Assembly (NCBI GenBank): GCA_937862565.1
Contig: CALMFT010000033.1
Coordinates: 1 to 64,000, forward strand
Source of the DNA: an uncultured bacterium
GTDB lineage: Bacteria > Patescibacteriota > Gracilibacteria > Absconditabacterales > Absconditicoccaceae
Direction of reading: 5' to 3'
DNA length: 64,000 nucleotides
Position 1 is the stretch's first letter. The number at the start of each line of letters is the position of its first letter. The position numbers and the translations under genes were made by a program. Shown here piece by piece: positions 6,751-53,145 of the stretch. The notes beneath the pieces were generated by a model. It was not told the DNA's origin and ran no database searches. It was given only the letters and a program-made list of their open reading frames with translations.

Positions 6751-7245
6751 ATGTTTAAAGACTGCAAACAATGTAACCAAAATAAACCTATAACAGAGTT
6801 TTATTCACACCCACTTACTAAAGATGGAACAATCAATCGATGCAAAGAATGTGTAAAACTAGGTAGACGTTCAGAAAAAGAAAGAAAAATGGCTAGAGAA
6901 CACGATATATTAAGAGCTAAAACTCCAAAACGTATCGCTAAATCTAAAATAATCACAGAACGCTTTAGAACTGCTAATCCATTAAAATGGAAAGCAGAAT
7001 GTATAGTTAACAACTATATTAAAAAACTAAAAAAAGCGTGATGGGAAAAACCAAAAAAATCTTTCATATCTAACGAACCACATAATTATATACATTTACA
7101 TCATCCTGACTATGAAAAGCCATTTGAAGTTGTACCTTGCACACCATCAGAACATAGAAAAATTCATCTATGAGAAATAATAGTGGAAAACAAACATATC
7201 CTTAATCTAAAAGAAATATGCTTACTATCTACTACCACGAAATAG
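6751..7245 (+). CDS. HNH-type nuclease with N-terminal zinc motif
   Basis: 164 residues. The N-terminus has C-K-Q-C (residues 5-8) and, about 20 residues later, C-K-E-C, a four-cysteine zinc module common on phage HNH proteins. The C-terminus reads H-L-H-H-P-D-Y followed by E-H-R-K-I-H, the H...N/H pattern of an HNH core. The middle is strongly basic, consistent with DNA binding. TGA at codons 97 and 145 is read as glycine. Its end overlaps the XRE regulator by 28 bases. It could be a homing nuclease or a phage DNA-processing enzyme. Confidence 0.72.
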
Positions 7246-7469
7246 GCGATTCAGTCAAGAATATTCGTGAATGGATAGGAATGTCACAAAAACAGTTAGC
7301 TTTAGAGGCAGGAATATCACCTGCCTCTATTTCTTTACTGGAGAATGGAACTTCAACTAACATTGGATTAGAAAATCTTCAATGAATATTCAAGGCTTTG
7401 TCACACAAACCCATCAAGAAAAAAGAGTATTGAGAAAATACAGGAACACTAGTTCTCTCATTCGAGTAA
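7218..7469 (+). CDS. XRE/Cro-type helix-turn-helix regulator
   Basis: 83 residues. Residues 14-45 form a classic HTH_3 fold: V-K-N-I-R-E-W-I-G-M-S-Q-K-Q-L-A followed by E-A-G-I-S-P-A-S-I-S-L-L-E-N-G. It is encoded between an HNH gene and the ssb gene and probably regulates transcription of this early block. No operator could be assigned with confidence. The C-terminal 30 residues are short and polar. Confidence 0.85.
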
Positions 7470-9622: not shown

Positions 9623-9958
9623 ATGAGTATGAGTAGTAAAAAAGTATATCCAAAACTCTCCACAGATGAGAATGGAAAAAAGTTTCACTTCGATGAAGGA
9701 AACACCCACTTTACAATACGTTTCGCTGGTAATCCAATGTTACTATTAGAGTATCTGTTTATTAAACGATGAGGTTCCGATTTTACAAATGCGTACCAAT
9801 ACGCTAAAGAAGGGAAGACTCACGAAGGACATCCCCTCCTTAGAGAATGTCGTGACGACTTATCCGAACTACTAGAAGTCATTGACCTTATCCACTCAAA
9901 CGGAAAAAATTCCTTAGTCGTTTACATTAACGATCTAGTATGAGTCAGAAAGAATTAA
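9623..9958 (+). CDS. Unknown 111-residue protein before primase
   Basis: The frame runs from ATG 9623 (or ATG 9629) to TAA. The product has mixed alpha/beta character with no recognisable family and few glycines. Its last 19 bases overlap the primase-helicase gene, so it is probably expressed with it. Confidence 0.65.
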
Positions 9959-12750
9959 TGAATAAATGGTTGTCTCTGTTCGGAGAATCAGCCACTTTTT
10001 TGCTCCCTGACATTAAATGAAGCCAGTGAATTGACTGGTCTTTAGCAAACACACTAGACGACAATCTAGCCGCAAATGCCGAGGCTCCTTTTGGTATGTA
10101 TTTTACTCCAAACGGTAACTTCGGACGTAAGCAAACTATATGAGAAAAACTCGTAAGACGAGCAGCTGACGCTGAAAAATACATCTCTTGTTTCTTCTTT
10201 GATATTGATATTAAGTCCACAGACTTTCAATCAGTTGATGAAGCATTTGATAAAACAATCGAAATATTAAAAGAACGTAACCTACGATTCCACTTCCTAA
10301 CCAAATCAGGAGGATGAGTACACGGTTATATCTTTGTTGAGCCATCACAACGTTACAACGTATGAGAAGCTCACATTAGAAATTTTAATGGTATAATGAA
10401 AACTATATCAGAATTCTTTCCAGGATGAGACCCGTCCGTAGGGACTATAGAACGCCTAATGCGTCTACCTTTCTCAAATCACTGGAAAACAGGATTACCT
10501 ATTAAAGTTGAATTATACAGATTAGATTGGGAAGAATGAGTTGAAGTAACAAAAGTGAAAGACGAAGACGATATATTCATAGGAGAATACACTTACTTAC
10601 AGTCAGAGCATATTACTTCAATGGCATATTCTATCAAAGAAGATATAGATGTTAAAAGAAATCTCGGTGGAAAGCTATCACTTGGTACTAGTAGTCTTAT
10701 TGACCAAATTAATAAGATTCCAATTGCTAATATACTAAACCACATTAAAAAATACCCACGTGTGAACTGAGATACTTCTACACAATTCGTATACAAAAAC
10801 GCATTTATCAGCTTCTTACATACCAACCTTAAAACTGGTGAAGTAAAAGAAGAAGATACAATGGGTTACAGAATATGGGAAGACAGAAACTGTGTAAACA
10901 ATTTCACTAACCATAACCACGATATATACGATAGACCACGATGAGGTCCATATTCATTCTTATATTATTACTTCCAAAAAGATCTAATAAAAATTAATGA
11001 GTTTCTAAAAACTGAGTTCAAGATTCAATTTGAAGAAAAATCAGAAGAATATATGATGCCAACAATCGTGTCTAGTGCAGGAATAATTCAGTTTACTAAA
11101 ACAAACGTTATCTATAAGAAGGAACAAGTGGATAACAAATGAAAGGTAAATGTAGTCAACAGGATACTCTTTGACAGTCCAATTGTCGTAAAAGGAATAA
11201 TGGAGAGTAAATACTCTTTATTCTGAGAAAAAGAGAACTCCCAAAAATACTATATCCTCCACAGACCTGATGCTTTTGAAGATAAAGATGTGATTATAGA
11301 TTTTAACGAATCAAGATCCAAATTTAACCAAAAGTACTGAGGAACGTGATTAGTATTTAAAGGTCAAGAAGAAGACCTACTAGACTTCTACGTAGCACTT
11401 AATCACGCAGTAGGAGCCTGACAAATAGAAAAGTACCAGCTTCGTTACCTTAATTGATTCTACCCAGAATACTTCCTGCTTGGTAATACATTCGTTACGC
11501 CTGACTTCCAGATCCACAAAGACTGGCAAGGAACAATACTAAAAACTCAAAAGGTTGAGGTGTTAGTCACAGGACGTGAATATGTAACAGCAGTAGAGTT
11601 CTACGATATGATGTGTAAGATATTTTCAAAGAGAGTAACTACTCTTTCTTTACTATCTTATATGGCTCTATTCTTAGGACATAACTTCTGGGAACCAATC
11701 AAACGAGTTAAGCAACAATTTATGATGCCAGGTCTAATCCTCTCAGGATTAACACGTGTTGGTAAATCAACACTGATCTCAATTCTTAAAGAAGGTTCAG
11801 GTATCAGTATAGAATCAAAACGAATGGCTATATCTGCCACAATGCAACCTCTACGCCAAATGGCTACCGATGCTTTTATTGTCCATTACGATGAATTTAC
11901 TGGTATTATTCCACTTGAAAAAGAACATATGATACGAGATATCCTTAACAAAGCTAACTCAGCTCGATGAACTATTACAGGAGATAATATCAACTACCAC
12001 TACAGAGCCTCTCTAATGATTGACTGAGAAAGATTACCAGCATCAGCATCAGTACTCAATCGTATGATTGCAGTGCCAATGTTTGAAGAAGATAAGCTAT
12101 GAAGTGAACTAAAACTGGAAGATATCCGTCATATGTCATATATGAAAGATCTCATCACGTCAGCATATAAATATGTTGATGAAGAATCTAGAATTGAATT
12201 ATTTAGAAAAGCAGAAACAGCTCTTCTTGCAGAATGAATTGGATGACGTAACTTAATGTTGAATACGTACTTATACGCTATGGCTATGATGTTAGGGTTT
12301 AAAAACCTTAAAGAGATAGCCAGCATAATTAAATACAATGTATGAGTCATTGAGGCATCATCAGCTCAGCAAGATGAACTGTCATCAGTACTATCCGATG
12401 CTATTCTAACTAAACGATTCATTCCAGTTAAAAGACATTCATTTGCTAACGGTGAATATACTATCGAGTTACCGCTTACATCAGAATTTATTAATGAAAA
12501 AAGTGTACATCTTATTGCAATTCAGAAAAAATATCCTAATATTACACTCTATTGAAATAGACTTACAATTGTTATTCCTGAAGAAGATACTAAAATGATG
12601 AGTCTTGTAGACCATTATGAACAGTATTTCAGAAGTGAAACAATAATGAAAGAAGATGTTCTTAAGATTCCTCTATCTCCTAATATTAACACCAATGCAG
12701 TACAATCTAGTTCTCGCAAAGCACCCAGAGATTATACTGGGTACTCGTAA
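9940..12750 (+). CDS. Primase-helicase: AEP-type primase fused to SF3/AAA-type helicase
   Basis: 936 residues. The N-terminal half resembles archaeo-eukaryotic primases: F-D-I-D-I-K with catalytic Asp88 and Asp90, then K-S-G-G-G-V-H-G-Y (third G from TGA) as the s-x-H motif, then R-L-P-F-S-N-H-W-K-T. The C-terminal half has Walker A G-L-T-R-V-G-K-S-T at residues 603-611 and a Walker B-like H-Y-D-E-F ending at Asp651-Glu652, typical of phage primase-associated helicases. Together they would unwind and prime phage DNA. No DNA polymerase is seen in the window, so the AEP domain might also polymerise, or a polymerase lies outside. The start overlaps the previous gene by 19 bases. Confidence 0.85.
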
Positions 12751-14384: not shown

Positions 14385-14404
14385 TTTCCTCTACATTATT
14401 TTAC
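14385..14404 (+). promoter_or_regulatory. Phage motif TTTCCTCTACATTATTTTAC (putative promoter)
   Basis: One of four close copies of a roughly 20-bp element found in front of rightward transcription units. It is followed by a hairpin, CCCTCT (14412-14417), loop TTCGT, AGAGGG (14423-14428). A possible phage-specific promoter whose mRNA would begin near the hairpin. Confidence 0.55.
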
Positions 14405-14546: not shown

Positions 14547-17500
14547 ATGTCTTTCTTTGGTCAGGACCCACTTCAATCTTTTCTTAAAAAAGAACCTACT
14601 AATCCTATTGTACCAGAACAAGTAACTAAAGAACAAAAACAGCAAGCTCAATGAGAGTGAGCATCTTTCCTAGACGAATATGTATACGATCCTGGAGCAA
14701 AAGCCTTAGGTGCAATTGGTACTGGACTAAAATACGTATGACAAGGATGGGACCTATTCTCAGGTACATTCACTTGAGATATGGACGGATCAGAAGCTGA
14801 AAAAAAATGGGCTGCTGATGAAAAAAAAGCTAAAGAAGCTCAAGCTAAAATGGAACAAACACAACGTTCCGTTCAATCTACATTTCTCTCTGGATTAAAG
14901 AGTGATTTTCAAACACGCAGTCCAAACAAAAGAGTTGTACTTGCTAACCAAGTTGATGAAGCTACTAAACAATATTCATCTCTATATGATACAATTGATA
15001 CAATGGATTGAATTGATCCAACAAAAACTAATAAAGCTCTAACTGAGAGTGGTGATCCTATTGCAAAATATATGGGAGCTGGTTATACATTTGGTTCAAA
15101 AGATGAATACAAAAGATACCTGGAATCCGATATTATACCTGCTCAACAAGAGCTACTACGTAGACAAGCTAAGTATCTTAACGAAGGAAAAGGTTCTGCT
15201 TATGCTTACGACAAAGCTATGGAAGAACAAGGTTCAGATGAACTCGCTCAAAAAATATCAGACTTCTCTAATAACTTACAAGCAGACTCTAATAGTGCAG
15301 CTATTGCTAAATTCAAAAATGATTGAAGTTACTTTAAAGCAGGACTAGCAGCAATCGGAAAAGTATTCGATGTAGCTCGTTACGCTGCAACTAAAACAGG
15401 ACTTGGATGACCAGATATCGCTAACGAATTCAAATACACAGTAGGTGGAGCAGAACAAGACGCAGGTGAATGGCAAAAAGCTTGATACGGAGCTGTTCGT
15501 AATCTATATGAACTATGGGACGGAGCACCATCAATCGTTTCACAAATCCCTGCCTTTATAAGTGGTACAGCGGTAGAATCAGGTGTGTCTAAAATACCTT
15601 GAGTATTAGAATGAATGGCTGCACTATCTAAATCAGAAAAAGTTATAGACTTCACTGATGATATGTTATGAGTTGCTAAAGCATTCGGAGATAAACATTC
15701 AGTAATGAAAGCGTTCTCTAAAGAAATGCTTACAGACACAATGGTATATGACCCAGCATCACAAGTATTTATGTGAAAAGGTATGACAGATCAAGATATT
15801 CAAGACAATATGATTATGAACCTACCAATTAATCTTGGTATTGGATTAATGGCTCGTAGCACCAAAACAGCACAAATGCTCGCTCAAGAATATGATATTC
15901 AAAAGACATTTGCTAAGGATGGTACAATAAATCTCACACAAATGGAACTTGATCTCATCAAAAATGGAGAGTACGACTTAGCACAACTTAGCATTCTAAA
16001 CCGTAACAAAGTATGAGCTAACGTTCCTGAAAATCTTATTAACCTAAGAAATATTACAGGAGATAAGACTCTTGCTAAAAATGCAAACAGAGTAGCTGAA
16101 AACGTACAAGCAATGCTTGAAAGAGTAGCTAAGAAAACAGAATCAACTGCTGACACACATATGCTCGGTACAGCTCTTGCTGATAACCTAATATCTGCTA
16201 ATAGTGAAAAAACTATGGCAAATTTTATGGCATTTAAATCTCAACAAGCAGCTAACGCTTCAATAGAAAAATCAATGATGAATGGAATGGAAGGAGAAAA
16301 TAGTAACAAGTTCTGGAGTGCTAAAGTAACAGAAGCTGGTAAAAATTGAACACTAGATATAGATACTGCTCTCACTAATTATATTAAAGCTAATCCTGAA
16401 TATAGTGCAGCTGCTCAACTCTACCGTAAAATATCAGGTGTTGCCCCAAGTAAAGACTTCAAATTCAATGCTAATACAATGAATGAAAAGACAGTAAAAC
16501 GTCAGCTTGGTAAAATGCTAAGAGATATTTACCGTGATGATGTAGCTTGAGCTGGTAAACTTGTAGAAGGAGAACGTCTATCTCCAGTTCACGTATTCTC
16601 ACAATGACAAGTACTTAATATTGCTACAGGAGAAAAGCAAGACGTAAGCAAATTCTTCGGTACAGTTAATCGTTCAACATATCAAAAGAAAGCACTTAAT
16701 GCTACAGTACTCGATGATGTTGCGGCTAACGCTCAAGTATTCGAATACTTTACTAAACAGCTTCCAGGTTGAACTCAAACAGAAAAACTACTTAACATCT
16801 TCAATAAGAAATCATTCGATAACTTATCATCTGAAGAAGTAACTCTTATTAGAGCTGCTCTATCTAATGAAATGCTCACTGACCTAGCTTCTCGTGGTAA
16901 AAAAACTACGCTACAGGCTCTATTCGGTCATCCTGCCTACAGAATGTTTACTAAAAATGAAGACGGTACATACTCAATTGCACTCAAAAACCTAGACTGA
17001 AAAGAACTATCTGAGACACTTGGTAAAATGTTTAAGACAATGGATGAAATGTCTATAGTTAAATACTTAGCAGATATTAAAGCTCAAGATGAAATTATAA
17101 CAGGACTTAAAACAAAATGAGTTAAATCAACTATTACAGAAGTAACAATGAATCAGCCAGACTACTTAAAAAATATCTGGAGCGGATTCTCAGAAATGCT
17201 ACTACGTAAAACTACACCTAGACTTAATACAAATCTTGCATTACCAAAAGTTCCTAAAGTAGAATGAATGAGAATGATGATGCAACTTCAAAAAGCATTT
17301 CCAAACATACCTATTGTTTACGGTAAGCTTCCAGAATGAATGAAAGGTATAGTATCACCATATCAAGGCAAACTCATCATAGATGACTCAAAAATGACTG
17401 AATTTACATCACTACACGAGTTCGGTCACGTATGGATTATGCACGCAAAAGCAGATGAAAAAGAGCTCTATGACTCAATGTCAAAAGCAGTTAAAGATAC

Positions 17501-20500
17501 TCCTTACTTTGCTAGAGTTAAAACTGAATACGGAGCATTCTATAAAACAGATGAAGAATTCATTGATGAAGCAATCGCACACGCTATTGAAGATTCAGGA
17601 GCTAGATTCTTAAACAAATTAGAACGTCAAAACTTTATAGATAAATTTATGGCTCTAGTTCAATCAATATTTGCTAAACTACGTAAAACAGACCTAACTG
17701 GAATGACTGATGATGTAGTTAACAAACTATTCAATACAAAAGGTAAACCAATATCAGAAAAAACACTAGCAGAATTAGATATACTTCAATTTACTAAAGA
17801 AGATTTCGATAAAAATAGTTACTTTATTAGACACATTATGCAAAAGATTAGTGAAGATGAGTTATTCAACCGCTTCGCTAAATCAGCTAAAACAGCAGGA
17901 GAACAAGAATTTATTTACCAAATTATCAACTCTATGATTAAAAATACTGTCCCATCTAGCCAACTTAAGTCAACTGTAGAAAATTACATCCACGGATTCA
18001 ATGATTACATTGGACTCGTAAATAAAGATCAATTCACTGAACAATATATTAAATCTGAAATAGCTAAGCTCGAAACAAGTTCTATTCTACGCTCAATGGT
18101 AACAGATTCTACAAAGAATCAGTCAACACTTGGTAGACTTCTTAAAGAAGGTGTAGCTACAACTGATACATTCATCAATCAACTCGATACAGCTATAGTA
18201 CAGATGGGGAAAAACCTTGGACTAAAAAGAGTATTCTTCAATGGCTCACTTGGTAAAAACTTCGTATCAGAACTTCAGAATACTATTGATTCTATTAAAA
18301 ATAGTGATATGAGCATTGTTCAAAAACAAAAAGCTCTCATAGATCAATCTATTGCTTACTCAAATGACTTTGTAACAAGTCTTTATGAAAAAGTAGTTAA
18401 ATGAGATGACATTGGATTCTCATACACAATCAATGGTAAAAAAGTATCAATCCAGCCAGAAATGCTCTACCAAATGCTACAAGTTATGCGTCTTCCAGAC
18501 TTTGCTGGATCACAACTTGGAATCAAAGCATTCCTTGGAAACAAAAATGTACGAGCTAATCTAAAAAAGTATTACGATGTTACAGCAGCTAAAATCGGAG
18601 AACTTAATGTAAACAATCAAGAAAGAAGAAGAATTGTTTCACAAGTTCCAGTAGATGAAATCCCTGCAAACAAAAATACTATTATTTTAGTGTCAGAGTC
18701 TAAAAATCCTGATATCACATACGCTGAATTCTCAGATGAAAACGGTAAGTATATGACAATCAATAAGTTCCTTGAATCTGAAGTAGATGCTAATACTAAC
18801 TACCTCGTTTCATCAAACTTCTTTGCTCGTAGTACAAACAATCCAGAAATGACTGCATTCCTTGATAAAGTTCAAGATACTAAAAATGTCTACCCAGTAG
18901 CATTCTCAGTAGTACAATCAAACGGTAAAAATATGGTAGAAGTAAATGGTTATGATCAACTTAAAAAGCATTTTGCTATTAAGTATACTTCATTCGAAAT
19001 GCCAGAGTTTAAATTTGATTACGCACCATCTGTTAAGTCTCTATCTCGTCTCTCAGAAAACTCAATCAATACAGAATCTCGTAAAGAATTAGGAGATATT
19101 CTCGATGGTACATACATAGAAAATCCTAAAGCCAAAGAAGTTCTAGAGGGTATGGGAGCTAATCCAGTTAACGCACCTACAGTAGATGAGTCACAACTAA
19201 TCCACTCATTCGGTGAAATTGGTAAAATTGGAGAAATGTACAGACAAGTACTCTCTGAAATTGTTCGTAAGGCAAGTGCTATCAAAACTAAAAAAGGAGA
19301 ACTCACTGAAGGATCATACATTACATCAGATAAACTCATCATTACAGATGATATTAAAAATGAATATCTTGATGCTATTACTGGTTCAGAAGATCTTGAC
19401 GCTATCTATATCAACGGTAAAACGCTTACAGAAAACATTGATGATGAACTAAGTGCAGTAGATAGCAACGATTACCTACGCAATCTTACAGAAGACCTAG
19501 ACGCTCTTAAAGAAACAGATATTGATAGTACAGACTTTGAAACTCATTCTGAATTCAATACTTGGAAGGAAAATGGAATCCGTGTTCTTGAATCTTCTAT
19601 CTCTGATGTTAAAAAAGCTATCGAAGCTTCACGTAAAGAAACACTTGGTAATGCTATTAAGGAAACTAAATACGCTACAGGTAAAGAAGCATTCGATGCA
19701 ATTACTACAATGCTAGTAGATGCTGGGTACAACTACACAAAGATCTCTGCAATCATTAAAACAGTTGCTACAGAAAATCCAGGATGGAAAAATGATATTC
19801 TTAACTCACGTGCATCAGAATTCCTTCCTTCATTCGATGGATTCGTTGCAGCTAGAATGGCTAGTCCACTTCTTGAAAAATACGCTGTTACTCCAGAAGC
19901 ATTTAAAACTGCAATGGAAGCAACATACGAAAGAGTTCATTCTGCTACATTCCGTAAGCATTACCCAGAAAACGATACAATCCTACAGCTGTTCCTTAAA
20001 TCTCTTCAAAAGTTTGAAGTTCTCGATGCTACTGATGATGTATTTGCTATTGCTACAAACCTTGCACCTGATACTAAAAAATCACTACACGGTCTAATAA
20101 ATAATATCTACTCAGGTGACTTCCAAAAGATCGCACTTGATGATAATACTGAATCATATGCCACATCTACATTCAACCAACTCTACCGTCAATTCGCTCA
20201 AGGTATGAAGAAAGATATGTCATCAAATGATAAACAGTCGCTTAGAGAAATGGGTGGTATAGACGAAGGAGAAGATGGAATGTTTACTACAGATACTTCT
20301 GTAACTACATTCGAAGGTAACGCATACAACCAAGTGATGAAAGATTTTGTTTCACAACTATCAGATTACCATCAATTCGAACTTAATGGAATACTCCCTG
20401 AATCATTCTCATTCCGAGACACTAAAGGTAACCCACTATACGAATCAACAATGAATCTAAATGTGTGGGCAACTCAACCAGAACATAAGGTTGCAAACGC

Positions 20501-21890
20501 TACTCCAGCAAACATTGCTGCTCCAGTAACAGGAGCTACAAAAGAAAAACTATCAAACCGTTCAACAATGAACAAAGCTTACGGAATCTTCAATAGTAAA
20601 TCAGTTGATACAATCAACAAATACATTGAACTCAATAAGTTTGATACGTTTGAAAAACTTCCTTTCAAAACAAAAGAGGGTCTACAAGATGCAATGCAAA
20701 AAGCTAACATCCGTATCCAAACAGAAGTAAACGATATTACAGAAGAAGTTCTATCTAAATCACTTAACAAAGCTGAAAAAGATATTAGTAAAGATAAGAT
20801 AGAAGAAATTAATGAATTCATTAAACAATTCCCTGGAGATGAATCTAATATTGGAATTGCACTTAGAGAACGTATGAAAGATGACTACGCTTACCTTGCA
20901 GAGTATTACGCATCTGATGCAGTAAAACATCTTGATAAAAAATCAGAAGTTATCGGACGTATTATGGGAAGAAATAAAAAACTAGAAAGAGAAGGAGCAA
21001 ATGCTGTTAAAGCAGAAATCAACTCAAATCTTCTTGGTAAAATTCTTAATAATGTAGTTCAAACTCTCGAAGCATTCCGCCTTAGAAAGATTACAGACTG
21101 AGCGAAAGATATTGAGCTTACTCCAATCTTTACAATGGTAACTGAATCAGGAGCTAAACGCAACTACTACCTTAATACAATTAACAACTCACCGATCTTC
21201 CGTACTCTTATGGCTGATGCAGGAGATGTTAAGTTTCCTAATCCTCTAATGCAAATTCTTGAATATGGTAAATATATTGAGAAAAAGATCTTAGAAATTG
21301 CTCCAAAAGATAAGGCTATAGTAGGTACACTTCCTTACCAAGGACTCGCTAGAAAGATTCGCAAGATTCAAAAACTCTATGGAGAAACCATTGGTAAAGA
21401 TACAATCGACTCATACCAATATACAAATGCTCAGGGAGAAGTTATTAGTAGGTATACAGGAGATGACGACAACATCAATGCAGCAAAGGATTACCTTGGT
21501 AACATCCTCGCTACAGATATGAAGATGACAGTAGCTATTGAAGATATTACAGGGTTCAGTCCAATCAAAATTGAAGGAGAAGGATTCGATTTCAAACTTG
21601 AAAAAGAATCACTCACTCCAATTGATCAAATTGATTACGCTCGTATCAATCCAGCATACCTTGATTCATATGACTTCTCATTCGTATATACAGATTTAAC
21701 AGAATGAAGTCCTACATTTGGTAAGACATTAGAATCAACATTTGGATGGGAATGAGACTCTGTTAAGCTTACAAATACTAGACAAGTCGTAGAAGACGTT
21801 GAAATTCCTAAAAAACTTAGTAAGATAGATGAAGAATTCAGTACACTCGCAGACACAGCAACCTGTGAGATATCTTCTAACCTTTTCTAA
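14547..21890 (+). CDS. Giant 2447-residue protein with zincin metallopeptidase domain
   Basis: The frame stays open for 7.3 kb with dozens of TGA codons read as glycine. The N-terminal 170 residues are Ala/Lys/Gln-rich and helical. Near residue 920 a segment reading I-P-I-V-Y-G-K-L-P-E-G leads to T-S-L-H-E-F-G-H (His957, Glu958, His961), and D-E-A-I-A-H follows with Glu1008 as a likely third zinc ligand, a gluzincin layout. The rest is alpha-helical and low in cysteine. Size, composition and the embedded zincin resemble the large 'polyvalent' proteins of phages, thought to be delivered into the host with the DNA. I see no RNA polymerase motifs. It ends 1 base before the second giant gene. Confidence 0.8.
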
Positions 21891-45442: not shown

Positions 45443-47755
45443 TTAGAAGGTGTAAGTAGGTTTTGAGTTATTATCTTTTTTTGGTGCCCTAAGTCAAGCA
45501 AAAGAGTAAATGAGGTTTGTATCAGGATTGATATTGCGTCTTAGTTCACGTATTTCTTCAGAATTCTCTTTAGAAATATTATGGAAGTATCAAGCAATAA
45601 ACCCAAAGTAGAATCCACATAACATCATTGCGTTTATTATATCATCGTGTCCAGTAACCGCTTCATATTTCACATTCCCAGATGCAGTTTCAAATGATTT
45701 GAAATGTTTCAGTTCTTCAAGAAGCCCAGAAAGCGTATTATAGGCTTGTAACATTTTAAGATCAATCAGTGACTGATTCATATGTACAAGATTTTTCTTA
45801 GCAAACTTCCAACTTCCCCATTTATCCATTTCAGGATGTGATGAACTTCCGCTTCAACCAGTGTACCAAAGTTTATGGTCAATAATAGAACCAAACGATT
45901 CAGCAACTACGTCACCTACCATCGTTCCATCAATAATTACCGATACCTTCCACTTCTTATTGATATACTTCTGCTTTAGATTGAAGATAAACTCCTTTTG
46001 GTAAATAGAGTAGTCACCCTGAATTGCATATTCTTCAACAATAAATAACTGTTTCTTATAAATATATCCAACCACAACTCCACCATAGTCACTTCTTTTA
46101 GCAGGATCGTAACCAATGATAACTTCATCAGGAATAATCTCTCCCATTGGTAAACAGAACAATGACTGCGTAGCAAATACTGAATGTATCTGGGGAAATG
46201 TCGCATAGAGTTCTGCAAAGTAGCGTTGTAAATTTCCTTTAAGTGCAACCTTCATACGTTCCTTAGACGGAGCAGATAAGATATTCTCATCAATATCATC
46301 AATAGTCACACGTTGTGCATATCATTCTGGATCTCATTCCTGTTCATAATGACATAGTAGTTCATAGAACCAATTCTTTGGAGTGTTCCAGTCAATAGTA
46401 GAAATAGCAAACAGCTTAGCGTTTTCATTTTCCACAATCGGAAGGATATTGAAGTACACGTCTTCTTTAATAAACCCAGCTTCATCAATAATAATAAAGT
46501 CAGAACCATTACCACGGGCAGGTTCATAACCTTTACCAGATGCAAAGTCACAAGTAGCAACCGTGACAAGCATACTCTTATTTCATCTCCCTAAATGTTC
46601 ATCTACAAGCTTCAGACGCTTTTCATCTTTACTCCACTTGAACACTTTAAGTATACGGATTCTTTCAGACGCAGTATCAATATAGTCAAGAACTGACTTG
46701 TATTGTTCTTCCTTTGGAGCAATATATAACGCCTTAATTTGTCTACTCTTATTTCTAGCAGACGGATTTCTATACAGTTCTCTCATTATGAGGTAACTCG
46801 ATAACAGAGTTTTTCATCATCTACGTACTCAGGCAATAGTATCCAATCTCTTTTGTGCAAGAAGAAACTTCATCTGCCAAGATTGCGGAGCAAAACCGAG
46901 AACTTTTCTGAGAAGATGAGTATATGCACCATACAATTTATAAGTCGTAGTGCCATCTCCATTGTTTATAATCTCAATCGGTTTAAATTTATCAATCTCA
47001 GTCTTTCTTCCTTTCGGATCAGTCACTATCCAGTTTGATTCTTCCTTTGTAATATTGTATTCAGTCTCCTTAGAGTCAACATTTAAAATCTGTTCACCTC
47101 TCATCGTGATCGTTAAGTCCTGACCAATCTTGTATCTCTGTTCAGTCTTGTTTCCTTGTGAATCAGTATTCACAATCGAGTGACTACGAAACGAAAAGTA
47201 ACCATCACTCACTTCTTTCATTACAAGCATTACATTCGTGTAGCGAAAATCGTCCGTTGAAAGTTCCCATACTGGTGTATGCGTGTTAACACTCATCGTA
47301 TTCTCACCAATCTTAATATCAACAACTCCTGAGAAAGGAATTTCACTCTCAAGAACTTTCTGAAAACAATAGAACGTTCTATTTTCTTTCTTATCAACAA
47401 CCTTCACAACTCTTAAGTAATGAAAAACCTTCTGTAGGAATTGAAAGAACTCATCCGATATAATTCCACCTTTAATAAATGTTCTGATAATCTGATTCGC
47501 TTCGTTCTGACAATCCGTGACAGTAACATTCTCATTATCCATCACTTCCTGTGTAACTACATAGGCTCTTTTCTTCCTAATAGAACCAAATAAAGACACA
47601 TCAATATAGTGTTGTTCACAATATTTACGTGCCGTCAGTTCCCATCTCGAAGCAGAATCTTTGTTGATTACTTGCTTTAATTGTTTTTCCTGACCAAAGT
47701 AGTTCAGGTCTCCTCATTCAATCGTAGGAATGAGTGATGAAATAAAATTAATCAT
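45443..47755 (-). CDS. terL: Terminase large subunit with unusual N-terminal extension
   Basis: 770 residues, versus about 450-600 in most phages. Walker A is A-G-V-R-R-G-G-K-T at residues 308-316, with three glycines from TGA, and Walker B is I-I-I-D-E-A-G with Asp424/Glu425. The RNase H-like nuclease follows: Y-D-P-A-K-R-S-D-Y-G-G (Asp about 550), V-I-I-D-G-T-M-V-G-D and H-D-D-I-I-N-A-M. The ATPase adenine-binding Gln is in P-Q-S-W-Q, about 25 residues before Walker A. The first roughly 250 residues are additional, beta-rich and of unknown role. No small-subunit gene is recognised; an HNH gene precedes it. Confidence 0.9.
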
Positions 47756-47774
47756 TGCGTGCAGTTAAAAATAC

Positions 47775-48242
47775 TTACCATCTATCTCCGCTCGATATGC
47801 GTGAGATTTGTGCTTCTGAAACACCGTACTTTTTAGAAAGTGCAGAGTGTTTAACTCCACTTTTACTCGCTCTTTTGATAGCCTGTACATTACCTGCGTT
47901 CAGTTTAGACTGTGAGTTTTCTTCACCTTCAGGACGATGTTGCCTATTCTTATTCACCTTATCCTGAGTATTACTGGTATTAGTACCAAGTGTTAGATTA
48001 GATGTGTTATCATTTTGTTGGTTATCATCATTATGTTGTACAAATGTTTTCTCATCATTGATATCCATACCAAGATAAGCACTCGCAACAAGTCGGTGGA
48101 CTAGATAAGTCTTACCGTTGATTTCACACTTCTTACCACCAAACTGGGTTTCATTAATGGCAATAGGTTCACCATTCTTGTAAACTTGTCAGGCTCTAGT
48201 GATAGAATATTCGGGAGCAAATGAGAGTTTCTTTCAGTTCAT
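47775..48242 (-). CDS. HNH homing endonuclease with C-terminal helix-turn-helix
   Basis: 155 residues. The N-terminus has Y-S-I-T-R-A-G-Q-V-Y, then K-T-Y-L-V-H-R-L-V-A-S-A-Y-L-G, V-Q-H-N-D-D-N-Q-Q-N-D and N-L-T-L-G-T: the HNH_3 homing nuclease plan, with variant residues. The C-terminal 50 residues (N-A-G-N-V-Q-A-I-K-R-A-S, H-S-A-L-S-K-K-Y-G-V-S-E-A-Q-I-S-R-I) are a resolvase-type HTH. It occupies the place of a small terminase and is the first gene of the leftward unit. The promoter lies only 6 bases upstream of its ATG. Confidence 0.82.
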
Positions 48243-48248
48243 ATCTGC

Positions 48249-48276
48249 ATCTTATCGCTTTAAGTTGATCTGTCAA
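48249..48276 (-). promoter_or_regulatory. Leftward sigma70-like promoter of the virion block
   Basis: On the minus strand TTGACA (48271-48276), 16 bases, and TAAGAT (48249-48254). The -10 box ends 6 bases before the ATG at 48242, so the mRNA would be leaderless. No other promoter is evident for the long virion unit. Confidence 0.7.
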
Positions 48277-48351
48277 AAAATAATTTACGATTGCAACATA
48301 AACCGTGACAGTTGTCAAGGCTATAAGGTGATTTATTGGAAAATATGGGAA

Positions 48352-48546
48352 ATGGCTAGTTTCCACCACCACTACCACCACTGGGTCTACCACCCCCCTA
48401 CACTTACCTCACCACTGTACGTACCTTCTCCCTACGGACCTACACGCACTACTCATAAGAGGTCTATTCAATTTTCTCTAACCAAAGATGCGGACCTAGA
48501 CCCTCAACGATATACAACCTTAGATCCCATCGAAGAGTACACCTAA
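48352..48546 (+). CDS. Possible 64-residue His/Pro-rich protein
   Basis: The frame from ATG 48352 gives a His-, Tyr- and Pro-rich peptide (H-H-H-Y-H-H-W-V-Y-H-P-P, then D-L-D-P-Q-R-Y-T-T-L-D-P-I-E-E-Y). It contains a degenerate copy of the CTCGTATACG element. A 115-residue extension upstream crosses the leftward promoter and is unlikely. Weakly supported, since the region is otherwise non-coding. Confidence 0.3.
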   Translation: MASFHHHYHHWVYHPPTLTSPLYVPSPYGPTRTTHKRSIQFSLTKDADLDPQRYTTLDPIEEYT

Positions 48547-48588
48547 GCCAGATCAAACCGTGACAGTCTAACCGTGACAGACAGAGAA

Positions 48589-48770
48589 GCCGTAATAAGT
48601 TAGCCGTAAATTGTGTACACATTATGTATAGATTATTTGAGACAGTACATTCTGAGACCAGAGAATCCGTAACAAGTATGCCGTAAAATATATGTTACCT
48701 CGTTCGTATACGTTGTGACCAGTAAGACTGTGGCAGACTACAGAGGTGCCGTAATATGGGTGCCGTAAAA
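48589..48770 (+). repeat. Paired CCGTAA repeats at about 80-bp spacing
   Basis: Three units: GCCGTAATAAGTTAGCCGTA (48589), TCCGTAACAAGTATGCCGTA (48666) and GCCGTAATATGGGTGCCGTA (48748). Each has two CCGTAA elements about 15 bases apart, and units recur every 77-82 bases. The second and third units are followed by CTCGTATACG-type elements. The pattern resembles iterons. Confidence 0.65.
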
Positions 48771-48881
48771 TACACACTAATCACATACCTCACTCGTATC
48801 CGTAACAATGTCAATAGACTTATTCAAATATTATGTTCATTACTTCTACTGCTACACTCGATATTGATACTATACACTATT

Positions 48882-49160
48882 AATCTATAGTATTATGGTA
48901 CCGTTTTATTCGTCACGGTTAAATCCTACACTGAATTACTTAATACAATGGAAACATTTTCTCTATATACTACTACTTATTATCTATAGTATCAATTCTA
49001 CTTATATCAGTAATCTATACAAAGGACCTATAATCTGCATAAAGATATATTCCTCACACAAAATAATCTTTGTACAATTTTATCATCAAACAAATATCAT
49101 CTTGATTCGTACAGTTATCAACCCTCAATACAAACTACCTCATAAGCTATAGTATCAATA
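48882..49160 (+). repeat. AT-rich CTATAGTAT repeats
   Basis: CTATAGTATTATGG (near 48885), CTATAGTATCAATTC (near 48992) and CTATAGTATCAATACC (near 49147) recur at uneven spacing in an AT-rich stretch. Such AT-rich repeated tracts are common at unwinding elements of origins, but no function is shown here. Confidence 0.4.
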
Positions 49161-49262
49161 CCCTGTATACCAGTAACGCTTACCTCGTACCTATACGTCT
49201 TACCCAGAGCATCCTGATGCGGATACTTACCTCGCTCGTATACGTCTTACTAAAACCTTACC

Positions 49263-49303
49263 TTTCCTCTACATTATTCTTACACTATATCTCAATTGAG
49301 ATA
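49263..49303 (+). promoter_or_regulatory. Phage motif plus palindrome TATCTCAATTGAGATA
   Basis: TTTCCTCTACATTATTC at 49263-49279, then TTACAC, then the perfect 16-bp palindrome TATCTCAATTGAGATA (49288-49303). The same order and spacing recur at 50798-50838 with a different palindrome. The palindrome could be an operator, or a 5' hairpin of the transcript. The gene at 49326 follows. Confidence 0.6.
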
Positions 49304-49325
49304 ATATTCTTTACCCTTTTCTCCT

Positions 49326-49472
49326 ATGACTATCTACGGAATAGTACCAGTATCTGCTAAGAAAGCAGCCATCTATAACGCATCTTCAAAACCAAAGAAG
49401 ATAGCAACCAAAGTAATCCGCATCGAAGGTACTAACAAATTTAAATCTGTACCTCTAACTCAAGCAGTATAA
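49326..49472 (+). CDS. Small 48-residue basic protein
   Basis: ATG 49326 to TAA 49470-49472. Basic (K-K-A, K-P-K-K-I-A-T-K-V-I-R) with no UGA codon. No family recognised. Its stop overlaps the next ATG (TAATG). It directly follows the promoter motif. Confidence 0.6.
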   Translation: MTIYGIVPVSAKKAAIYNASSKPKKIATKVIRIEGTNKFKSVPLTQAV

Positions 49473-50017
49473 TGAAGTATTTCATCGGCATCCTCGTGTT
49501 CCTTACAATAACGCTACACTATTGTAATAACCAACAGACATCCTCAACATCATCTCAAGCTGAGAGAATGCGAAGCGAAAGCTGAGCCTACTCTCGCACA
49601 CAGTATCCTCACATTGAAGTCAAGATACTAGACTGAGATACATTCGTCTACAACAAAGAACACATACGCCTTGCATCAATCAACGCACCTGAGATTGCAC
49701 ACAGTGGCAAGCCAGCAGACTGCGGTTGATACAGAGCAATGTCACGCCTTGAGTATTACCTCACTCGTATACGTCCAGCATCTATGCTCCGTATCGAACG
49801 CCTCGGTCAAGACAAATACTGACGTACTCTAGCCACAGTCTACATTGATAACGAACCAACATCCGTTAATCAACATATGGTTAGAGATTGATACGCTCAG
49901 TCATACAATCCTTGATTCGGAATCACAGTACCAGACTACAGTGCAGACTATACACAAGCAATCAATCAACAAGCAGGTGTATTAGATATCTGTTCTCTTG
50001 CTAATAAATCTAACTAA
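49472..50017 (+). CDS. Exported SNase/thermonuclease-type nuclease
   Basis: 181 residues. The N-terminus (K-Y-F-I-G-I-L-V-F-L-T-I-T-L) is a signal peptide or lipid-anchor leader. The rest follows the staphylococcal nuclease fold: V-K-I-L-D-G-D-T-F (D-G-D from TGA), I-R-L-A-S-I-N-A-P-E, G-Q-D-K-Y-G-R-T-L-A-T-V and G-Y-A-Q-S-Y-N-P. The conserved Asp, Arg and Glu of the active site are present. It cuts DNA or RNA outside the cytoplasm. A copy of the repeat element lies inside the gene at 49754-49776. Confidence 0.85.
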
Positions 50018-50024
50018 TACCAAT

Positions 50025-50297
50025 ATGAAACCAATACTCTTCATCATCCTAATACTTACCTCACTCGTATACGTATCCGAGTGTGAAGCGGCACGCTGAA
50101 CACAAGTAAGCGTACCTACTACAGAAGCTCACACTATCAATCACGATTGGTGTGATGCTATGTTCTCGGCACTACGATTCGAAGAAGTTCCACCATCAAT
50201 ACATCTTGAATGCAAATCACGCTTCAGGTGGAATATTAACCGTGAGAAATCTTCAATGCGAGCATACTCAAACAAAGTTAACTCATTTAAATACTAA
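50025..50297 (+). CDS. Small exported protein (90 residues)
   Basis: A hydrophobic leader (M-K-P-I-L-F-I-I-L-I-L-T-S-L-V-Y-V-S) ends before C-E-A-A-R. The mature part has Trp and two Cys (D-W-C-D-A, L-E-C-K-S) and a basic tail. No family recognised. Part of the leader is encoded by a copy of the 20-bp repeat element. Confidence 0.55.
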
Positions 50298-50310
50298 GAA
50301 TATTATCCAT

Positions 50311-50478
50311 ATGAGACCAATAGACATATACGATACAAGACATAAGCCTGCCAAATATCTTTGAACAGGCTACTTCGCAAACAGAACAGAAGCCAAGACA
50401 GAATGATCTAACTTCTTCCAAGTTCCAGAGTCTAACATCAAGGCATCAACTGCTCTCCCATTCAAAACCCTTTCTTAA
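50311..50478 (+). CDS. Small 55-residue protein
   Basis: ATG 50311 to TAA 50476-50478, with two TGA codons. Begins M-R-P-I-D-I-Y-D-T-R-H-K-P and contains K-T-E-G-S-N-F-F-Q-V-P-E-S-N, a pattern seen in small phage proteins that modify host processes, but not assignable. Confidence 0.5.
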
Positions 50479-50489
50479 CCCCACCAACA

Positions 50490-50756
50490 ATGAAGACTAC
50501 TAATCTTTTTGCTGACAACACTGTCATCCAACATCTCAAGACCCTTCCTCAAAACCAATGGGGTGAGGAAGAAATACTCCATATGTACACAGAACTTGAA
50601 AGTATCAAGACTGAAATCTCTATCTGTTCAGTAGTACCAACTACTATCGGACACAGAGTACAACTCCAACTGATGTATGCTTGGCTCAACAACCATAGAC
50701 TTACATACGAAGAACACTTGAACAAGATGCTACAGAGACAAGCTCTCTTCGCATAG
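50490..50756 (+). CDS. Unknown 88-residue helical protein
   Basis: Helical, Leu- and Gln-rich (V-I-Q-H-L-K-T-L-P-Q-N-Q-W), with no UGA codon. No family recognised. It is followed immediately by a repeat element (50757). Confidence 0.6.
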   Translation: MKTTNLFADNTVIQHLKTLPQNQWGEEEILHMYTELESIKTEISICSVVPTTIGHRVQLQLMYAWLNNHRLTYEEHLNKMLQRQALFA

Positions 50757-50797
50757 AGTTACCTCACTCGTATACGTACCTGTTACAGACCTAGACC

Positions 50798-50838
50798 TTT
50801 CCTCTACATTTTTTATTACACTTGTATCATTTGATACA
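50798..50838 (+). promoter_or_regulatory. Phage motif plus palindrome TGTATCATTTGATACA
   Basis: TTTCCTCTACATTTTT at 50798, TTACAC, and the palindrome TGTATCA-TT-TGATACA (50823-50838) precede ATG 50863 by 24 bases. Architecture parallels 49263-49303. The gene downstream appears highly expressed by codon bias. Confidence 0.6.
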
Positions 50839-50862
50839 CTATCTTTCTAACCATTATAAGAT

Positions 50863-51270
50863 ATGACTACTACTTCTACAAAGTCTACTAAGGCTTCAGT
50901 TGCTGCTAAATCAGCTTCACTTGTTCCAGCATCATTCGGTTCTAACGGACAATTCATCCGCTACAATCTTAAGCTTGCAACACCAGCACTCAAGAAAGAG
51001 TTCCCTGGTTACGATGAAGTTCGCATCACTGCGTACATCGGAGGACATATGTTCATCCAACCAGGTGCAACAAGAGACGACACAGTTGCTCCAATCGTAA
51101 AGAAATCAGCTGACTCAAAAGTATGGCTTGCTAAACACAACCTTCAAGATATCACTAACAACCACACATTCGGTATCAGCCGACAGATTGTTGGTCAGAA
51201 ATCTAAGAACCCTGCTAAGGCAGCAGAACTCACAGCTGAGTTCAACTCATCTCGTGCTACAATTGGATAG
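50863..51270 (+). CDS. Unknown 135-residue protein with no UGA codons
   Basis: Lys/Ala/Thr-rich N-terminus, then a beta-type middle (F-I-R-Y-N-L-K-L-A-T, V-R-I-T-A-Y-I-G-G-H-M-F-I-Q-P) and helical tail. All glycines use GGN. It has a promoter motif, an operator-like palindrome and a strong terminator of its own, so it is probably abundant. No family recognised; a DNA- or RNA-binding protein is possible. Confidence 0.7.
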   Translation: MTTTSTKSTKASVAAKSASLVPASFGSNGQFIRYNLKLATPALKKEFPGYDEVRITAYIGGHMFIQPGATRDDTVAPIVKKSADSKVWLAKHNLQDITNNHTFGISRQIVGQKSKNPAKAAELTAEFNSSRATIG

Positions 51271-51276
51271 CACACA

Positions 51277-51306
51277 AAACCCCAACCTAAACAGTTGGGG
51301 TTTTTT
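51277..51306 (+). terminator. Intrinsic terminator after 50863 gene
   Basis: CCCCAAC (51280-51286), a 7-base loop, GTTGGGG (51294-51300) and T6. It separates the rightward unit from the leftward gene at 51366; A residues on the far side make it possibly bidirectional. Confidence 0.88.
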
Positions 51307-51365
51307 CTTGTTCATACTACCAGCCTAGGAACTTACCTCACTCGTATACGTATCCGAGTGCAACG

Positions 51366-52757
51366 TTAGTTGGCATCAGTATACGGAATACTACGGAGCA
51401 CATCATAGTGTGCCGTTCGGAAATCTCGTACTGATAGACCGCCTAACAGAGACTCATACGATTCCCAGAACTCCTCACGAGAACTATATCCATTAGCTTC
51501 ATACTGATTCCAATCTGGTTCATCTTCCAAAAAATGTTCAACATAATTAATCATCTCGGAGGCAGAGGCACTGCCAGATTGAAAGTCTCACATACAATAA
51601 TCATACAGATTAATAAGTTGCCAATCAGATAAATCAAAGAATGTCTTCTCAACAGATTGAACTCATACATTTCTAAGAACACAAGGAACTCATTCCATAA
51701 CCTTAACCTTCTTAGGCATACGAGCTGCATTAGCTTTCACATACTTATTATACTTGTCTAGATCCCAACATCTATCACCTGATATTACCCAACCATTAAT
51801 ATAATCAATCAATTCCTCTACATTATCTATATATTCTGAATTCATTTGAACCCACCGACACATAAGCTCTCGTGATACTCTTGGATCTCTTCCATACTTC
51901 TCTTCCCAATCTCTATATCACATATACCCCTTAGAAGCACGACCACTCTTATTTCATTGAGAACAATATTCTTGGTACTGAAAGTCATTTGACCAAGCTA
52001 CCATTACACGGTTAATGAAATCAAATGGTAACTCCCAAGGATAACAAGTGATGCCATAAAATGATCCACGGCTTGATCTAATATTCAAAGCATACTGATC
52101 TCGATCTCATAATGATTCATATCCAAACTTACCTAAGATAACTCTACTTACGGTAGCCCTTCAAAGATCAAGAGCTTTAGCAATATACTCGCTACTATAA
52201 GAACCACAGTTAGCAAGAATAGTATTTATAACTCATAGTGGTAATTTCTTTCTTCATCCAGCATTCTTGAATCATTTAAAATCTTCACAAATCCAATTAG
52301 CAGTATGTAATCTATTACTAGGTACATTATCTACATAAGATATAAATCTTCATTCAACCTTAGCTCAATACCAATATTGTAAAACAATACTACCGTGTGA
52401 TACATAGAATCTCTTCCAAGATCATCTCGCTGTAGGAATAGGCATAACAGGTGGAGTTATATCTCGTAAACTGTTAGTGATAATTCATCCAACTGGACCT
52501 GTAGTAACAAGAGACTCTCGTCTTCGGTTATATTCATCAAGCTTCTTGTCATAAGAAACAAGAGCTAAACTATTATCCATAGCCCAATCGTGCTGAGGAT
52601 CATACAAAGCGTATCGTAAGTATTCCTTACCACTCATCGTAATCTTCTTAGGCACAACTTCTATCCATTCATCCTTAGAAACAGTAAACACATACAGAGT
52701 TCCTTCAACAGTGAGACGATAACTACGATTTCGTAATTCAAATGACTTCATATCCAT
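51366..52757 (-). CDS. Solitary leftward 463-residue protein with HTH-like segment
   Basis: One frame joins residues 1-463 with about 20 TGA codons. The middle has a helix-turn-helix-like segment (S-E-Y-I-A-K-A-L-D-L-G-R-A-T-V-S-R-V-I-L-G). Other parts are Trp- and Asp-rich (Q-H-D-W-A-M-D-N, W-V-I-S-G-D-R-C-W-D) and the C-terminus is acidic. No family is recognised. It is the only leftward gene in the right arm and ends against a repeat element at 51331-51365. It could be a regulator or replication initiator acting on those sites, but this is inference. ATG 52755-52757 is chosen; 52749-52751 is an alternative. Confidence 0.65.
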
Positions 52758-52835
52758 ATTATATAGGGGTTAAGAGATATACAGTATATCCATTTCTTAA
52801 TTTTATGCAAACTTTTCTTATATATCACGTAGACC

Positions 52836-52860
52836 ATTCCTCTACATTATTTATTATATG
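52836..52860 (+). promoter_or_regulatory. Phage motif before 52858 gene
   Basis: ATTCCTCTACATTATTTATT ends at the ATG of the 52858 gene. It lacks the downstream hairpin seen at 14385, 49263 and 50798. If it is a promoter, the mRNA would be leaderless. Confidence 0.5.
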
Positions 52861-53145
52861 AGCTTTACTTCTAACCCATTTTTTATGAGACAATTACTTT
52901 ATGCAATACTCCTATTCATTTGATCCTACATCATATGATTCGTAAGTGGATTCCAGTACCTGAATCAACAGGACCGATACCAGATATGATATGATACCTG
53001 AGACAATGAATGATACTCTCGATGATATGAACAATGAGCGTGTTGAATTGTACGATCAGTAACAGGCAGACTAAATTGTCAGATTAAAGAGATCCAAACA
53101 GCATCAGGAAAAACTATCAGAGCAGCTATTTCTTTACCAGAATAA
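52858..53145 (+). CDS. Membrane-anchored glycine-rich protein (95 residues)
   Basis: One membrane span (residues about 12-32, L-L-Y-A-I-L-L-F-I-G-S-Y-I-I-G-F) with many glycines from TGA, and Q-I-G-Y-D-T-G-D-N-E-G-Y-S-R-G-Y-E-Q-G repeats after it. No family recognised. Confidence 0.6.

Follow-up and report, generated by a model that had tools for sequence, protein, structure and literature searches.

Nine same-strand copies of a 19-bp element in and downstream of a divergent control region of a phage that reads TGA as glycine

What purpose might be served by a short word that is written nine times within 3 kb of a phage genome, always on the same strand, both in noncoding DNA and inside genes? 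The word (TTACCTCACTCGTATACGT, 19 bp) lies in a contig of 66,494 bp, the first 64,000 nucleotides of which constitute the window analysed here. Translated with TGA as glycine, the contig yields a large terminase, a portal and other phage proteins, and since the host RecA gene also has in-frame TGA codons (five), phage and host both use code 25. To our knowledge, little is known about the control of transcription or replication in phages of TGA-glycine bacteria, and a set of sites that can be counted exactly, with copies inside genes, provides a concrete handle on a regulator or initiator and on the control region.

The array spans a divergent spacer and a plus-strand unit with its terminator. 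The large terminase gene is also found at the left border, beside the HNH gene, and the order within the unit is ORF 49326, the SNase-type nuclease, the signal-peptide protein, two small ORFs and ORF 50863.

47775..48242, - strand: HNH_3 endonuclease (I-HmuI-like), C terminus HTH-like; borders the spacer on the left
48243-49325: divergent spacer of ~1.1 kb, holding five copies of the 19-mer
49326-51270, + strand: transcription unit of small genes between the spacer and the 51366 ORF
49472..50017, + strand: SNase-type (staphylococcal nuclease) protein with a signal sequence (PF00565, 1.4e-12, code 25)
50025..50297, + strand: 90-aa protein, signal-peptide-like N terminus, no family match
50863..51270, + strand: 135-aa ORF, no family match
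51276-51304: intrinsic-terminator-like hairpin after ORF 50863..51270
51366..52757, - strand: 463-aa ORF, no family match, HTH-like stretch by eye; right border

A search of both strands of the contig at up to five mismatches returned exactly nine matches, all nine on the + strand (range 48404-51351). An earlier sequence-only reading had already listed nine copies in a single orientation, and both count and orientation were correct, while its start positions were 1-2 bases off. It had also placed the copies around the divergent control region, and they are located within that region and downstream of it.

48404..48422, + strand: copy 1, four mismatches, in the divergent spacer
48695..48713, + strand: copy 2, two mismatches, spacer, directly after the second GCCGTAA-type pair
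48785..48803, + strand: copy 3, two mismatches, spacer, directly after the third GCCGTAA pair
49180..49198, + strand: copy 4, four mismatches, spacer, right of the AT-rich stretch
49227..49245, + strand: copy 5, one mismatch, spacer, followed after 18 bp by the promoter-like motif of 49264
49756..49774, + strand: copy 6, no mismatches, within the SNase-type nuclease gene, translated as (Y)YLTRIR
50056..50074, + strand: copy 7, no mismatches, within the signal-peptide gene, encoding LTSLVYV
50759..50777, + strand: copy 8, no mismatches, 2 bp past the stop of ORF 50490-50756
51333..51351, + strand: copy 9, no mismatches, beyond the terminator of the + unit

Chance accounts poorly for this set. 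The uniform orientation alone has a two-sided probability of 0.004, and at ≤3 mismatches the window holds seven copies against 0.01 expected from shuffles. When each site was scored with a position weight matrix built from the other eight, the nine copies reached 17-31 bits and the best non-site in the whole contig no more than 12.4. Random density elsewhere in the genome, which the sequence-only reading had named as grounds for giving up its claim, was not seen, the rest of the 1.27-Mb MAG having no match at ≤3 mismatches; nor did any other word of the contig (every seventh 19-mer scanned) have more than three local copies at that threshold. Neighbouring copies are irregularly spaced (47-703 bp apart), and none of the four perfect copies is in the AT-rich spacer, where the copies are the degenerate ones.

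The two copies inside genes are read in different frames (phase 2 for 49756, phase 1 for 50056, code 25), as had been noticed before, and because the frames differ it is a nucleotide word and not a peptide that they have in common. With the peptides held fixed, the chance of synonymous codons yielding the consensus is 5e-4 at 49756 and 9e-5 at 50056, and the codons over the 19-mer are not unusually rare. The earlier statement that the DNA itself is conserved thus stands as far as shared nucleic acid goes, with the repetition seen within one genome only. We conclude that the 19-mer is a solid cis-element in which the nucleic acid is repeated and not a protein, in which direction matters, and whose sites are confined to this region alone. 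Recent dispersal of a small mobile or recombinogenic sequence with no regulatory function would explain why four copies are identical and why copies 7 and 9 have 30 nucleotides in common (copy 7 extends into a near-palindrome, CACTCGTATACGTATCCGAGTG). We consider it most unlikely, as boundaries are fixed at ~19 bp with flanks otherwise unrelated between copies, and the contig has no copies elsewhere. Moreover, alignment of the nuclease with solved SNases revealed no extra residues at copy 49756, so this copy was not added by insertion, and its interpretation as an inserted mobile piece was rejected.

The contig also has six copies of a second motif, TTCCTCTACATT, again always on the + strand (6/6), and five of these lie just upstream of genes or of the tRNA cluster (14386, 49264, 50799, 52837 and 64530). 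Elsewhere in the MAG the motif is nearly absent, and, judged from sequence, it is likely to be a phage promoter motif. Two of its positions belong to the + unit:

49264..49275, + strand: promoter-like motif TTCCTCTACATT before ORF 49326
50799..50810, + strand: promoter-like motif TTCCTCTACATT before ORF 50863

At both, a 19-mer ends a short distance upstream (18 bp for copy 5, 21 bp for copy 8); random placement of nine elements reproduced this 18/21-bp pairing in 0.46% of trials, in a test that was framed post hoc. The five gene- or tRNA-proximal sites have the form TTCCTCTACATT(W)TTT, and at three of the five a short hairpin can be seen by eye ~10-15 bp downstream. The 19-mer itself was considered as a sigma-70 promoter and dropped, the hexamer spacing not fitting.

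A repeated nucleic acid whose direction matters and which is restricted to one region is best explained as a protein site present in multiple copies, and since the sites are found at promoters and throughout the + unit, transcription control with stoperator-like action fits them. Our tentatively preferred reading is therefore that the 19-mer may be the asymmetric recognition site of one phage-encoded DNA-binding protein, used as dispersed operators; that a protein binds it, which protein this is and that transcription is what it controls are things we infer. Such a protein would cover both the divergent control region and the small + unit (49326-51270) driven by it, the 19-mers beside the two promoter-like motifs acting as ordinary operators and those inside or between genes as direction-dependent roadblocks or looping partners, in the manner of repressor-bound stoperators. 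The product of 51366-52757 is a candidate binder. The contig's only match to HTH_3, an XRE-type protein of 83 aa (7218-7469, + strand), is ~41 kb away from the array. Against the operator reading, the motif copies at 14386, 52837 and 64530 have no 19-mer, no repressor was identified, copy 9 lies beyond the terminator and copies 1-3 are upstream of any recognised + gene.

The last two of these points also weigh against a role in RNA, in which UUACCUCACUCGUAUACGU in the + transcript would be bound by an RNA-binding protein, an antitermination complex or a small RNA. All 19-mers run in the sense direction of the + unit, as such a role would have it; no hairpin is common to the copies, however, and no Rfam match was obtained, leaving this explanation unlikely.

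The closest parallel to dispersed operators is found in the stoperators of Cluster A mycobacteriophages (L5, Bxb1, Trixie), which are short, asymmetric and numerous in each genome, mostly in one orientation relative to transcription, with some at promoters and most not, and which block elongation when bound by repressor (PMC6550527). The 19-mer is likewise one-directional, with 9/9 copies on the + strand, as is the unit 49326-51270. Stoperators are, however, 13 bp long, number up to ~30 per genome and have a known repressor, against 19 bp and nine copies here, and they are spread genome-wide whereas the 19-mers are all within 48404-51351 of a 66.5-kb contig. Lysogeny is unsupported, since no repressor was identified and the contig, which is not closed, has no match to Phage_integrase, although a temperate phage could also rely on a serine recombinase or persist as an extrachromosomal prophage. 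Given the lack of genome-wide spread, and with repressor and lysogeny unestablished, we have not filed the 19-mer as a stoperator system. Repeats and promoters also go together in halovirus HF2, whose intergenic repeats are reported to be regulatory and to carry promoters (PMC8707807); they differ from the 19-mer, which stands apart from the promoter-like motif and is found inside genes as well.

The spacer has further features that bear on its function, among them three more repeat families, all on the same strand:

48302, 48557 and 48571 (48302..48580), + strand: ACCGTGACAG, three copies
48589..48769, + strand: three CCGTAA pairs with a 14-bp offset, in degenerate ~80-bp units
48811..49160: AT-rich stretch (72.6% AT, 99.4th percentile of 350-bp windows), containing three CTATAGTA repeats

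GCCGTAA occurs five times in the whole contig, all on the + strand and all within 48589-48769. Among 500-bp intervals of the contig, 48838-49337 has the strongest GC skew, and it overlaps the AT-rich stretch; the most extreme 3-kb skew starts at 48952. GC skew had been proposed beforehand as a check for an origin, and although the contig's strongest skew is indeed here, it keeps its sign across the element region. On a broader scale, 47000-53000 shows the contig's strongest negative GC skew, and as this interval spans genes on both strands together with noncoding DNA, coding direction does not explain it.

These features suggest an origin-like spacer, and the main rival to dispersed operators is that 48243-49325 is the phage origin, with the 19-mers as iterons bound by an initiator and the downstream ones as extra titration or handcuffing sites. 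Iterons are typically ~19 bp and uniform in orientation, and P1 has a second set of them beyond its origin (incA), which the downstream 19-mers would resemble. The 19-mer matches the 17-22-bp direct repeats of such origins in length and in its single orientation (9/9 +), and as in P1 (oriR and incA) and the lambda ori its copies adjoin an AT-rich stretch, here accompanied by the other same-strand repeats and the skew. In contrast to those iterons, it does not form a regular tandem array, some copies are in unrelated genes, and the perfect copies are the ones outside the AT-rich spacer. Furthermore, no DnaA-box match was present in the spacer and no Rep_3 initiator match in the MAG, replication-type genes are about 7-28 kb away, and the skew does not change sign. 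On balance an iteron-type origin is possible but doubtful. A 936-aa protein encoded at 9940-12750 (+ strand) had no family match; inspected by eye, it shows AEP-primase-like motifs together with a P-loop (GLTRVGKS), and is possibly a primase-helicase.

Packaging is another function that might be assigned to repeats in this position, given that the spacer adjoins the HNH gene and the large terminase and that other phages are known to have repeats to which small terminase binds. A pac or cos recognition array is nevertheless very unlikely: no small terminase was identified, nine sites over 3 kb with two in unrelated genes are unlike described sites, and four of the nine are 1.5-3 kb from the terminase side.

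The operator and iteron readings are compatible. A combination of them, rather unlikely in our estimation, would make the 19-mer an undescribed directional site whose binder couples the start of replication, at an AT-rich origin with multiple repeats, to control of the adjoining unit.

The search for the element in related phages that the sequence-only reading proposed covered viral and genome contigs, and gave neither a match beyond chance nor a close relative. Neither IMG/VR contigs nor GTDB genome contigs contained an exact match to TTACCTCACTCGTATACGT, and degenerate forms (R/Y-degenerate in IMG/VR contigs, degenerate in GTDB contigs) returned nothing above chance. At ≤2 mismatches, 353 genomes of the class, its own included, contained two single matches in other genomes, which is chance level, since a reversed control pattern gave two in the same genomes as well. 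Searches of IMG/VR contigs with TTCCTCTACATT or with the terminase, portal, P0004, P0006 and 9940-12750 proteins yielded nothing closely related to the phage, and neither did those with the terminase in GTDB genome contigs and 98 relatives; phage records gave no more than terminase and portal matches of ~23% identity.

Two other features of the contig deserve mention. The 2447-aa ORF at 14547-21890 (+ strand) is without Pfam or PHROG match and without T7-type RNA polymerase motifs. At the end of the contig, a cluster of seven tRNA genes includes one with the anticodon TCA (contig 66420-66493, L008:2420-2493); ARAGORN calls it SeC, but in a phage that reads TGA as glycine it is probably a tRNA-Gly(UCA).
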